Origin: Catenuloplanes niger
Lineage (GTDB): Bacteria > Actinomycetota > Actinomycetes > Mycobacteriales > Micromonosporaceae
Length of the DNA stretch: 64,000 bases
Reading direction: 5' to 3'
Assembly (NCBI RefSeq): GCF_031458255.1
Contig: NZ_JAVDYC010000001.1
Coordinates: 7,612,501-7,676,500 of the forward strand
Part shown: positions 19,237-53,592 of the stretch, piece after piece
How the letters are laid out: each line of letters opens with the position of its first letter
Position numbering within the stretch: position 1 is the stretch's first letter
Notes under the pieces: model-generated
What the model saw: only the letters and a program-made list of their open reading frames with translations
Told to the model about the DNA's origin: nothing
The model's database searches: none
Translations under genes and position numbers: made by a program

Positions 19237-19398
19237 CCCGCGGTTCTCCTGCTTCGGACCCGGCTCGGTTCCGGCCGCTCCGGCGGGCGCGAGGCGTCAC
19301 CCGGCCGAGCGGGCGACGCCTCGCCCGGCACGTCCGACATTTCGCGATACCGTGCCCCAGGCTGTGGTGATGGCGATTCCGGCGAGCGAGTGGCCCAG

Positions 19399-19483
19399 CC
19401 CTGAGTGATCAATCAGGTGTGCGAAAGGTAGATCAAACAGCGAAGATGACCTCTCTTTTGCACACCTGATTGATCGCTCAGGG
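19399..19483. repeat. 69-nt GATC-bounded hairpin element, copy 1
   Basis: The core element spans 19407-19475. Its arms GATCAATCAGGTGTGC and GCACACCTGATTGATC pair perfectly, continue as GAAAG/CTTTT-type pairing, and enclose a loop with TCAAACAGCGAAG. Outside the GATC ends CCCTGAG and CTCAGGG extend the stem, so the whole inverted repeat is 85 nt. Copy 2 at 53514-53582 has the same length, the same ends and the same loop core but a different, equally paired stem. The remaining intergenic sequence (19237-19398 and 19484-19634) shows no gene. Confidence 0.8.
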
Positions 19484-31528: not shown

Positions 31529-31560
31529 ACGGCCGGGGCACCGATCGGTGCCCCGGCCGT
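31529..31560. terminator. Perfect 32-nt palindromic terminator
   Basis: ACGGCCGGGGCACCGA followed directly by its reverse complement, between convergent genes ending at 31524 and 31589. It is a strong bidirectional terminator. Confidence 0.8.
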
Positions 31561-52081: not shown

Positions 52082-52110
52082 GGGACTGTGCCACGAGGGG
52101 TGTTTCCGGC
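52082..52110. repeat. IS256-family left terminal inverted repeat
   Basis: GGGACTGTGCCACGAGGGGT and the following TGTTTCCGGC-type end pair with the right end at 23/29 positions. Confidence 0.85.
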
Positions 52111-52155
52111 CCGACACGCCGGGCTGAAGTCCTGGCGGGATGGGCACCGTGAGTG

Positions 52156-53451
52156 ATGACATCGAACGTTGTGAGTCCACGGAAGAAGATCGAGGGTGAC
52201 GGGCGGCAGCTGTCGCCGGAGCAGGCCGCTGCGGCGGCGATGGTGGCCGAGGCGAAGGCGCGCGGGCTGGAACTGACCGGTCCGAACGGCCTGTTGAAGC
52301 TGTTCACCAAGAATGTCCTCGAGACCGCGTTGAACGAGGAGATGACTGAACACCTCGGTCATGCGAAGAACCAGGCATCGCCGGAGCGTGAGTCGACAAA
52401 TGTGCGCAACGGCAGCCGCGGCAAGACGGTGATCTCGGATGCGGCCGGTGAGGTGCGTATCGACGTGCCGCGAGATCGGGAAGGGACGTTCGAGCCGCAG
52501 ATCGTGAAGAAACGGCAACGGCGCCTGACCGAGGTCGACGAGATCGTGTTGTCGTTGTATGCGAAGGGAATGACGACCGGGGAGATCTCCGCGCATTTTG
52601 CGGAGATCTACGGTGCGTCGGTGTCGAAAGAGACGATCTCGCGGATCACCGATAAAGTCGTGGCGGAGATGACGGAATGGTCGACCCGGCCACTCGATGC
52701 CGTTTACGTGGCCGTGTTCATCGACGCCATCGTCGTCAAGGTCCGTGACGGCCAGGTCGCCAACCGGCCGGTCTACGCGGCCATCGGGGTCACCGTGGAC
52801 GGCCACAAAGACGTCCTGGGGTTGTGGTCCGGCTCCGGTGGCGAGGGCGCCAAGTTCTGGATGAGTGTCCTGGTGGATCTGAAGAACCGTGGCGTGCGGG
52901 ATGTGTTCTTCGTCGTCTGCGACGGGCTGAAAGGGCTGCCGGACACCGTCGAGGCGGTGTGGCCGCAAGCGATCGTCCAGACCTGCATCATTCATCTGAT
53001 CCGGAACACTTTTCGTCTGACCTCCCGGGCGGATGCCGACGCGATCAAACGCGACATCAAACCGATTTACACGGCGGTCAACGCCGACGCCGCGCTCGCC
53101 GCTCTGGACGACCTCGAGGAGAAATGGGGGAGTAAATACCGGGCGATGATCCGGTTGTGGCGTAACGCGTGGGATGAGTTCATCCCGTTCCTCGATTACG
53201 ACGTCGAGATCAGGAAGGTGATCTGTTCGACGAACGCGATCGAATCATTGAACGCCCGCTACCGTCGTGCTGTTCGCGCACGCGGGCATTTCCCCAGCGA
53301 GCAGGCCGCGTTGAAATGCCTGTATCTTGTGACCCGCAGCCTGGACCCGACCGGGGCCGGCCGCGCACGATGGACGATCCGCTGGAAGCCCGTGCTGAAC
53401 GCCTTCGCCATCACCTTCGGTGACCGCTGGCCGGCCGCCGAAACCTACTGA
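52156..53451 (+). CDS. IS256-family transposase
   Basis: This 431-residue Mutator-type transposase has the DDE triad: Asp190 (VAVFIDAIVVKV), Asp256 (VVCDGLKGLP, with the family CDGLKGLP signature) and Glu363 (CSTNAIESLNARYRR). An N-terminal region with LTGPNGLLKLFTKNVLETALNEEM binds the ends. It is intact, with no frameshift. The ATG at 52156 directly follows an in-frame GTG at 52153. Codon use is less GC-biased than in the neighbours, consistent with transfer. Confidence 0.95.
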   Translation: MTSNVVSPRKKIEGDGRQLSPEQAAAAAMVAEAKARGLELTGPNGLLKLFTKNVLETALNEEMTEHLGHAKNQASPERESTNVRNGSRGKTVISDAAGEVRIDVPRDREGTFEPQIVKKRQRRLTEVDEIVLSLYAKGMTTGEISAHFAEIYGASVSKETISRITDKVVAEMTEWSTRPLDAVYVAVFIDAIVVKVRDGQVANRPVYAAIGVTVDGHKDVLGLWSGSGGEGAKFWMSVLVDLKNRGVRDVFFVVCDGLKGLPDTVEAVWPQAIVQTCIIHLIRNTFRLTSRADADAIKRDIKPIYTAVNADAALAALDDLEEKWGSKYRAMIRLWRNAWDEFIPFLDYDVEIRKVICSTNAIESLNARYRRAVRARGHFPSEQAALKCLYLVTRSLDPTGAGRARWTIRWKPVLNAFAITFGDRWPAAETY

Positions 53452-53458
53452 CCGAAGA

Positions 53459-53487
53459 GCCGGAAACACCGATCTTGGTACGGACCC
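53459..53487. repeat. IS256-family right terminal inverted repeat
   Basis: Begins GCCGGAAACACCGATC and ends at the right-hand target duplication; complements the left end at 23/29 positions. Confidence 0.85.
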
Positions 53488-53507: not shown

Positions 53508-53592
53508 CCCGCGGATCATTGACCGATGCGAAAAGGAGGTCAACAGCGAGGTTCGGCAGCCTTTTCGCATCGGTCAATGATCGGCTCGCGGG
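53508..53592. repeat. 69-nt GATC-bounded hairpin element, copy 2
   Basis: The core spans 53514-53582. Arms GATCATTGACCGATGCGAAA and the matching TTTCGCATCGGTCAATGATC pair perfectly (23 bp in all, to AAAAGG/CCTTTT) around a loop with GGTCAACAGCGAGG. CCCGCG and CGCGGG extend the stem outside the GATC ends. Same length, ends and loop core as the element at 19407-19475, with a different stem sequence. 53593-53713 holds no gene. Confidence 0.82.

Follow-up and report, generated by a model that had tools for sequence, protein, structure and literature searches.

A 69-bp palindrome bounded by GATC (H), present twice in the analysed DNA of Catenuloplanes niger, recurs between genes in the host genome and in congeners, and most copies lie a whole number of DNA helical turns from a second, directed motif (M). 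Judging from sequence comparison, we see about even chances that H forms the centre of a composite extragenic site that binds proteins and in which it is paired with M. The whole-turn spacing suggests a kind of protein-docking site, located at gene ends, that is as yet undescribed, and most likely the sites are nucleoprotein composites close to gene 3' ends. Both M and the phasing lie outside the coordinates given in a first-pass annotation of this DNA, which left them out.

The window, i.e. the whole stretch of 64,000 nucleotides analysed, holds just two copies of H according to a covariance search of the host genome (Table 1). They had been annotated as 69-nt hairpins beginning and ending with GATC, and their coordinates, exact length and GATC ends were verified. 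Folding of the plus strand as single-stranded DNA gave z-scores of -10.6 (copy 1) and -8.5 (copy 2), which none of 200 shuffles equalled. Pairing was also said to continue beyond the GATC ends of both copies. This is strongly the case in type B, represented by copy 1, where 7 of the 8 nearest outer bases pair and the exception is the innermost one, but in copy 2 only 4 of 8 pair in register and the fold shows a bulged outer stem. The M site beside copy 1 is the sole M-like site in the window (score above 12); no M was detectable within 260 bp of copy 2. Absence of Rfam matches above the gathering threshold in the 64-kb window agrees with the earlier remark that the element was not recognised as a described family.

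Table 1. Features of the window and GATC-bounded palindromes at other loci (window positions, or locus followed by positions within it).
Feature	Position	Strand	Remarks
69-bp palindrome H, copy 1	19407..19475		type B, GATCAATCAGGTGTGC arms; one of 14 host type-B copies
Left outer arm CCTGAGT of copy 1	19400..19406		extends the type-B palindrome outwards
Right outer arm GCTCAGG of copy 1	19476..19482		complements the left outer arm except for the innermost base
Motif M beside copy 1, degenerate TCCGACATTTCGCGATAC	19333..19350	+	directed at H; its first base is 74 bp away from GATC
69-bp palindrome H, copy 2	53514..53582		type A, GATCATTGACCGATGC arms; one of 20 host type-A copies
49-50 bp palindrome family	L039 2039-2088; L043 2005-2053; L047 1129-1178; L050 957-1006; L062 1896-1945; L077 1342-1391		
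62-63 bp palindromes	L059 1211-1273; L060 1846-1908; L105 1349-1410; L110 1093-1155		

The genes next to copy 1 are convergent and match the Pfam families of periplasmic binding proteins and MaoC dehydratases; those next to copy 2 are in tandem and match a Mutator-family transposase and an amidohydrolase. The transposase gene (52153-53451) is part of an IS256/Mutator-type element at positions 52088-53481, whose terminal repeats (GTGCCACGAGGGGTGTTTCCGGCC near 52088, its partner near 53458-53481) match imperfectly. The right end of this element is some 32 bp from copy 2, and its insertion may have split copy 2 from a flanking motif. At 31529-31560, the window also contains a GC-rich palindrome of 32 bp (ACGGCCGGGGCACCGATCGGTGCCCCGGCCGT), perfect and with GATC in its middle, which bears no relation to the 69-mers.

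A covariance model built from the two window copies retrieved 34 copies of H from the 9.74-Mb host genome (68 hits on both strands, 67 of them spanning 69 nt and one reported as 68), so that H is a multi-copy element and is not confined to the two sites. Twenty copies belong to type A (arms GATCATTGACCGATGCGAAA) and 14 to type B (arms GATCAATCAGGTGAGCRAAA). Type-B copies continue outwards with CCTGAGT/ACTCAGG, whereas no flank position is paired in more than half of the 20 type-A copies. A search of the host genome for lone arms, allowing up to 3 mismatches, returned 39 type-A and 27 type-B arms and none for the reversed-pattern controls; all 66 arms begin exactly at the ends of the 34 H copies. 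The loop sequence TCAA(A)CAGCGA(A/G)G, regarded earlier as a conserved core, is present in both window copies but is not general. It occurs four times in the host genome, twice in the window copies and twice outside any such hairpin. Counted on either strand, the full motif was found in 2 of the 34 host copies, CAGCGA in 3, CGAAG in 16 and AGGTCA in 25, and the full motif was rejected as a defining feature because only these two copies carry it.

Among 101 related genomes, searched with stricter filters at which weak matches are lost, H matched in four, namely the host (G000) and three of its four congeners (G001-G004), while the 96 further relatives gave no match. A fuller count of hits on both strands yielded 119 for G002, 82 for G003 and at least 150 for G004 (150 of 272 candidates scored), one place in G004 being 70 nt long; no 69-mer above threshold was found in G001. 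The search for H by DNA similarity among plasmid records gave no match. The loci analysed below (L005-L119) were selected by the palindrome and comprise 115 copies, 98 of them distinct: all 34 from the host and 81 from congeners, i.e. 19 from G002 (out of about 60), 29 from G003 (out of about 41-47) and 33 from G004 (out of possibly 136), where the totals are both-strand hits or candidates, halved.

The outer stems had been reported to differ between the window copies and yet to remain complementary. This was borne out in the 34 host copies, which contain 134 double-changed stem cells versus 67 after shuffling (reached in none of 500 shuffles) and thereby support a structural or symmetry constraint on the arms. 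The signal was lost once the partners were slid. Much of this host covariation reflects the split between types A and B, and kinship is left in the statistic. Several arm variants occur within G002 alone, where 296 of the 304 cells of pairs 5-20 were paired, versus 233 expected. Outer pairs are exchanged as whole Watson-Crick pairs: among the 98 distinct copies, pair 8-62 reads C-G in 57 copies and G-C in the other 41, and pair 11-59 is T-A in 42, C-G in 30, G-C in 24 and unpaired in 2. GATC is near-invariant at the ends of H. Arm mismatches of the G-T type (85) and of the A-C type (103) are nearly equal in number (p=0.21), which does not suggest RNA pairing.

Reading of the flanks revealed CCCGAAATATC about 70 bp from many H copies. 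The motif M was defined as GCCCGAAATWTCGCCATA, with the weight matrix G-C-C-C-G-A-A-A-T-W-T-C-g-c-n-A-T-A, and is often preceded by GGGCRC-NNN-GYG; one of seven pairs tested in its GGGCRC-NNN-GYGCCC inverted repeat covaries clearly. The flank scan scored only M facing the palindrome. At scores above 14 and within 260 bp, M was found in 161 of 230 flanks and at 107 of the 115 loci, a frequency conditional on the choice of these loci by palindrome, versus 2 of 230 control stretches located 600-860 bp away. M stands on both sides of H at 54 of the 107 loci. Five of the 34 host palindromes, including window copy 2, lack a detectable M. The orientation of the motif was examined at 284 distinct M sites on both strands: a strong palindrome (stem threshold 17) was present within 45-260 bp only ahead of M at 187 sites, only behind it at 5, on both sides at 9 and on neither at 83.

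The exact core CCCGAAATWTC occurs 39 times in G000, 56 times in G001, 364 times in G002, 56 times in G003 and 165 times in G004, with 0-1 matches to the reversed pattern. A longer form of M was present in 13-149 copies in each of the five genus genomes; of 294 others, 7 contained it, with a single occurrence apiece. Its reversed control gave one match across all 299 genomes.

In the host, the distances from the first base of M to GATC fall into steps: 40 (two sites), 51, 61-62 (four), 65, 71-74 (twelve), 82-84 (eight), 91-94 (six) and 114 bp. The circular resultant of these distances is greatest (R=0.851, n=35) for a period of 10.5. Distances above 140 bp were omitted from the period statistics (one of 183 bp in the host, one of 245 bp in G001); the limit was 130 bp in the spacer tests and 180 bp in the comparison of dyad and foot. 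The host spacers themselves are unrelated, their mean pairwise identity being 0.285 versus 0.268 for shuffled sequences, with 2 of 528 pairs above 0.65. Removal of related spacers left R at 0.843 in the host (33 of 35), a value reached in none of 3000 uniform draws, even with the period left free between 8 and 14, and at 0.837 in four genomes (80 of 150). AT-rich flank words other than M showed a weak value above zero (R=0.224, n=262), perhaps due to weak M sites. The host locus L010, with a distance of 65 bp, is out of phase.

Unbiased sets were picked by M and comprised 26 partly overlapping loci of G001, 20 loci of G002 and 30 of the 39 exact M sites of the host. Fifteen of these 30 host sites face a strong palindrome (stem threshold 15), in all 15 cases no more than about 2 bp off a multiple of 10.5. 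The other 15 have no strong palindrome ahead, and one of them (L344) faces a 69-mer below the stem threshold. At the G002 loci (stem threshold 11), 13 of 29 M sites face palindromes, which belong to several families and have their dyads at 31.5-211 bp; none of the 13 dyads departs by more than about 2 bp from a multiple of 10.5.

Also, the partner of M can be an unrelated palindrome. In G001, M faces the palindrome CTTTGTGAGSCTCAGGCACGT..., which is 57 bp long in all 23 distinct copies. The distances are 45-47 (20 sites), 67, 78 (two), 99 and 118-119 bp (two), with the one of 245 bp left out; they advance in steps of 10.4-10.5 (R=0.94, n=26). A 62-bp palindrome is phased with M (6 sites), but the 63-bp CCTTGC family is not (3 sites, R=0.18). 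Pooling of the families other than H69 and H57, the CCTTGC family included, at the stem threshold of 17, gave R=0.72 (13 sites, p about 1e-3).

Palindromes of unequal length allow the dyad and the foot of the stem to be distinguished as the phased element. Measured to the dyad, mean phases were 1.4 for H69 (n=152), 0.55 for H57 (n=22), -0.25 for H62 (n=6) and -1.0 for H63 (n=2), and 1.5, 1.5 and 1.0 for three single-site families, one of which is a short GC-rich hairpin. Measured to the foot, the family phases spread from -5.0 to 4.05. The resultant of the family phases was 0.86 for the dyad versus 0.16 for the foot; here, families are weighted equally, those other than H69, H57 and H62 contribute one or two M sites apiece, and the analyst chose the position of the foot for each family. 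Pooled over sites, the values were 0.84 and 0.60, the latter being closer to that of the dyad because H69 dominates. The dyad phase points to protein-bound duplex DNA over an RNA hairpin or an extruded cruciform. Since the geometry of a cruciform would follow the foot and that of bound duplex the dyad, a duplex occupied by a symmetric protein is favoured.

Further repeats were seen in the intergenic DNA of the genus. The surroundings of the 57-bp palindromes of G001 (e.g. L181, L184 and L195) often include GATCGTCCACTGTGR or a similar sequence on the M side, with GATC 14-15 bp outside the arm, and GATC 8-10 bp outside the arm on the far side; GATC thus recurs near an unrelated palindrome. One family of GATC-bounded palindromes of 49-50 bp, found in congeners, has the form GATCnnGGCGTCCCC...GGGGACGCC, and those of 62-63 bp fall into at least two unrelated sequence families (GATCCTTGC... 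and GATCGTTGTTGCGCTC...). G003 also has two larger inverted repeats with GATC at their ends and GATCWTCGGCAGGGCCGCCA as arms, one of 102 bp (L085 894-995) and one of 109 bp (L090 1100-1208). Long non-coding stretches of G004 and G003 hold tandem arrays, with units of 32 bp and 18/54 bp, next to the elements (L074 1653-2111, L083 999-1255). Recurrent intergenic units, among them ATGCCACTTAGCCTAAGTTGATCA, with variants, and TTCCCGCTTCCGGCGTG...GCTCCCGCGGGC, were found in several congeners (L069, L074 and L083; e.g. L083 at about 645-680 and 1980-2010). The intergenic DNA of the genus seems to be assembled from several repeat families.

Positions relative to genes were determined with home-made gene calls, for which codon scores were trained on the window. 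None of the 115 H copies lies wholly within a called gene, and one overlaps a gene end by some bases. Mapping against gene ends, a check proposed in the first-pass annotation, placed the copies mostly downstream of genes: 54 copies have convergent neighbouring genes, 45 tandem ones and 4 divergent ones, with 12 cases undetermined. Since a chromosome has roughly as many divergent as convergent gaps, the ratio of 54 to 4 (p=3e-12) is far from chance. An inserting element that keeps clear of promoters would also produce a convergent bias. At L017 (1501-1569; host 6301833-6301901), a type-A element enters the end of the upstream reading frame and contains its stop codon; in the counterpart of this locus in G002, the stretch ends differently. 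The distance from the gene end to M is mostly above 100 bp. A restriction of M to the side of the gene that reads towards it was a tendency without significance, and a strand polarity of the KOPS type was rejected, M being seen by eye on both strands throughout G001.

The best-surviving alternative, which we regard as unlikely, is a non-autonomous mobile palindrome of the MITE or REP type. H would then be a pair of terminal inverted repeats that abut each other and are mobilised in trans by a transposase with the target GATC, and M would mark preferred targets, insertions falling on one helix face beside an M-bound protein. Several observations fit: the sharp end of host type-A copies at GATC with unpaired flanks; identical 69-mers in differing surroundings in G004; GATC at the ends of unrelated palindromes as well (one scan required GATC, another did not); and the stop codon contained in the host copy at L017. 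One gene gap carries different subfamilies in different species, and the L017 gap has an element in G000 and G003, none being found in G001, G002 and G004. GATC at both ends of H would fit a target-site duplication, but the orthologous gaps compared, L017 among them, differ wholesale, too much for a duplication to be read; no orthologous locus was found in congeners for L022. GATC-centred palindromes that might represent empty sites are few, and larger repeated units surround some H copies in G003 and G004. In G004, a reverse-transcriptase domain together with DDE_Tnp_4 and ISL3 transposases lies between a close pair of palindromes (L122 1800-5334), but this pair is of different types, B and A. 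The pair at L120 encloses no ORF of 120 aa, that at L121 a sortase-domain frame and others, and that at L123 ordinary-looking frames.

The search for a mover of these palindromes also speaks against this scenario. With all host arms assigned to 69-nt copies, neither lone arms nor longer elements with these ends were found in the host (up to 3 mismatches), and a MITE of a resident IS was rejected on this ground. The classical mover of extragenic palindromes is the Y1 transposase. The Y1 (RAYT) domain PF01797 was detected in none of the five genus genomes at E 0.001, as compared to 5 of 14 control genomes. The earlier proposal of a REP- or MITE-like element with a dedicated transposase is sensible as to the REP-like class, but neither Y1/RAYT nor a long IS with these ends was detected in the host. 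The frequent presence of M on both sides of H is a further point against mobility, as is the phase of the dyad, and not of an insertion end, across families of unequal length. Copying may have placed the palindromes; the phasing must reflect selection or a very particular choice of targets.

A structured RNA or bidirectional terminator, in which a transcript hairpin would act at the 3' ends of convergent genes with the small GC-rich inverted repeat of M as part of the signal, is improbable. It would account for the very stable hairpins, the covarying stems, the convergent bias and the covarying pair in the inverted repeat before M. However, phasing of M and the dyad at 10.5 bp over distances of up to about 200 bp lacks a reason in RNA, and M mostly lies more than 100 bp from the gene end. 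No T-tract, i.e. no U-tract in a transcript, was seen by eye after the host H copies, which together with this distance sets them apart from intrinsic terminators. The structured RNA considered in the first-pass annotation is unsupported, because the M spacing follows the DNA helical repeat and G-T is not preferred over A-C in the arms.

Recognition by shape of an extruded cruciform or a single-strand hairpin, by an HUH endonuclease or an integron-like recombinase, appears slightly less probable still. Long near-perfect stems kept by compensatory change amid sequence drift, and the several unrelated stems that fill one role, would be expected from it, but the phases of the families are concordant at the dyad and dispersed at the foot, and Y1, the HUH enzyme searched for, was undetected in the genus. 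Of the protein-binding cruciform envisaged earlier, the protein-binding part is sensible, while the cruciform is disfavoured because the dyad and not the stem foot is in phase. Least probable is that the matching arms are a mutational by-product of template switching during replication, which perfects quasi-palindromes without selection on symmetry: arms more perfect outwards and the presence of both G-T and A-C intermediates agree with it, but the fixed lengths (69 in the host, 57 in 23 of 23 copies in G001), the near-invariant GATC, the association with M and the phasing are left unexplained.

With its many palindromic copies between genes, H corresponds to REP elements in the broad sense. 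It shares with REP/RAYT systems the extragenic location, copy numbers of tens to hundreds and stems that differ between species. In contrast to H, which has 69 nt and GATC at both ends, REPs as characterized in the accounts compared are of about 21-37 nt and start with GTAG, TGTAG or a G/TGTGG-like variant. Neither a short palindrome of about 20-40 nt with a GTAG-like foot nor a cognate Y1 was found for H; since the GTAG foot and RAYT were both looked for in vain, H is classed as a repetitive extragenic palindromic element outside REP/RAYT.

In BIME-1 of E. coli, IHF is bound between two REPs (PMC2817692). BIME-1/RIB resembles the M-H arrangement in combining multi-copy extragenic palindromes with a second protein site at the 3' ends of transcription units (PMC2817692; Boccard and Prentki 1993). 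H likewise tends towards gene ends, but the IHF site of BIME-1 is enclosed by two short palindromes (PMC2817692), whereas M, the second site here, flanks a single, long central palindrome. No sequence relation of BIME-1/RIB to M-H was seen, and the passages on BIME-1 do not mention helical phasing of interchangeable palindromes (PMC2817692). BIME-2 elements are intergenic palindromes that are bound and cleaved by gyrase and have been suggested to aid genome organisation (PMC6379681). They share the intergenic palindromic nature of H, with no sequence relation seen to the elements described there (PMC6379681). Small non-autonomous MITE-like repeats, some of which contain an IHF site according to the description in PMC2229807, are also comparable. 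For H, in contrast, no parent transposon with its ends was found in the host, i.e. no longer autonomous element sharing its terminal repeats as is typical of MITEs of DDE transposons, and the spacers between M and the palindrome are unrelated among host copies yet phased.

The main text of the RepRanger survey of REPs contains none of the terms Micromonospor, Actinobacter, GATC, phased and helical, and Actinomycet once (PMC12306157). A literature search, with most subscription journals outside its scope, found no account of a phased M-palindrome element. The architecture of palindrome and M was not found in the searched literature; the kind of element, a repetitive extragenic palindromic one, is known.

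For the composite site, we propose that a symmetric protein, dimeric or tetrameric, would occupy the palindrome as duplex DNA, and that M would be bound by a shared partner protein located on the same helical face, which would allow the two proteins to touch, with the spacer bent or looped. The wide arm variation within G002 would be intolerable for a single sequence-specific protein and argues against this explanation. Each palindrome family might be bound by a protein of its own or by one that changes fast, M being the docking site common to all. With less confidence, we suggest that the assembly may act at transcription-unit 3' ends, above all in gaps between convergent genes. A topological or nucleoid-organising role, in which the sites would be similar to the IHF- or gyrase-binding BIME/RIB of E. 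coli in role and not in sequence, is also proposed with less confidence, from their location.

The function of extragenic palindromes is mostly open despite their wide occurrence. In the sites reported here, spacer sequence, spacer length and palindrome sequence all vary while the helical phase is kept, which amounts to a natural linker-scanning experiment. The alternative between a selfish repeat and a working site becomes directly testable, and M can serve as bait for its protein. We give a little less than an even chance to the broader possibility that a genus-wide M is read with any of several unrelated long palindromes, provided that the dyad is whole helical turns away, and that a conserved docking protein cooperates with rapidly replaced palindrome-binding partners at dozens to hundreds of copies per genome. 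If true, one half of the code of such a chromosomal system would be conserved throughout the genus, the other half being swapped between species.
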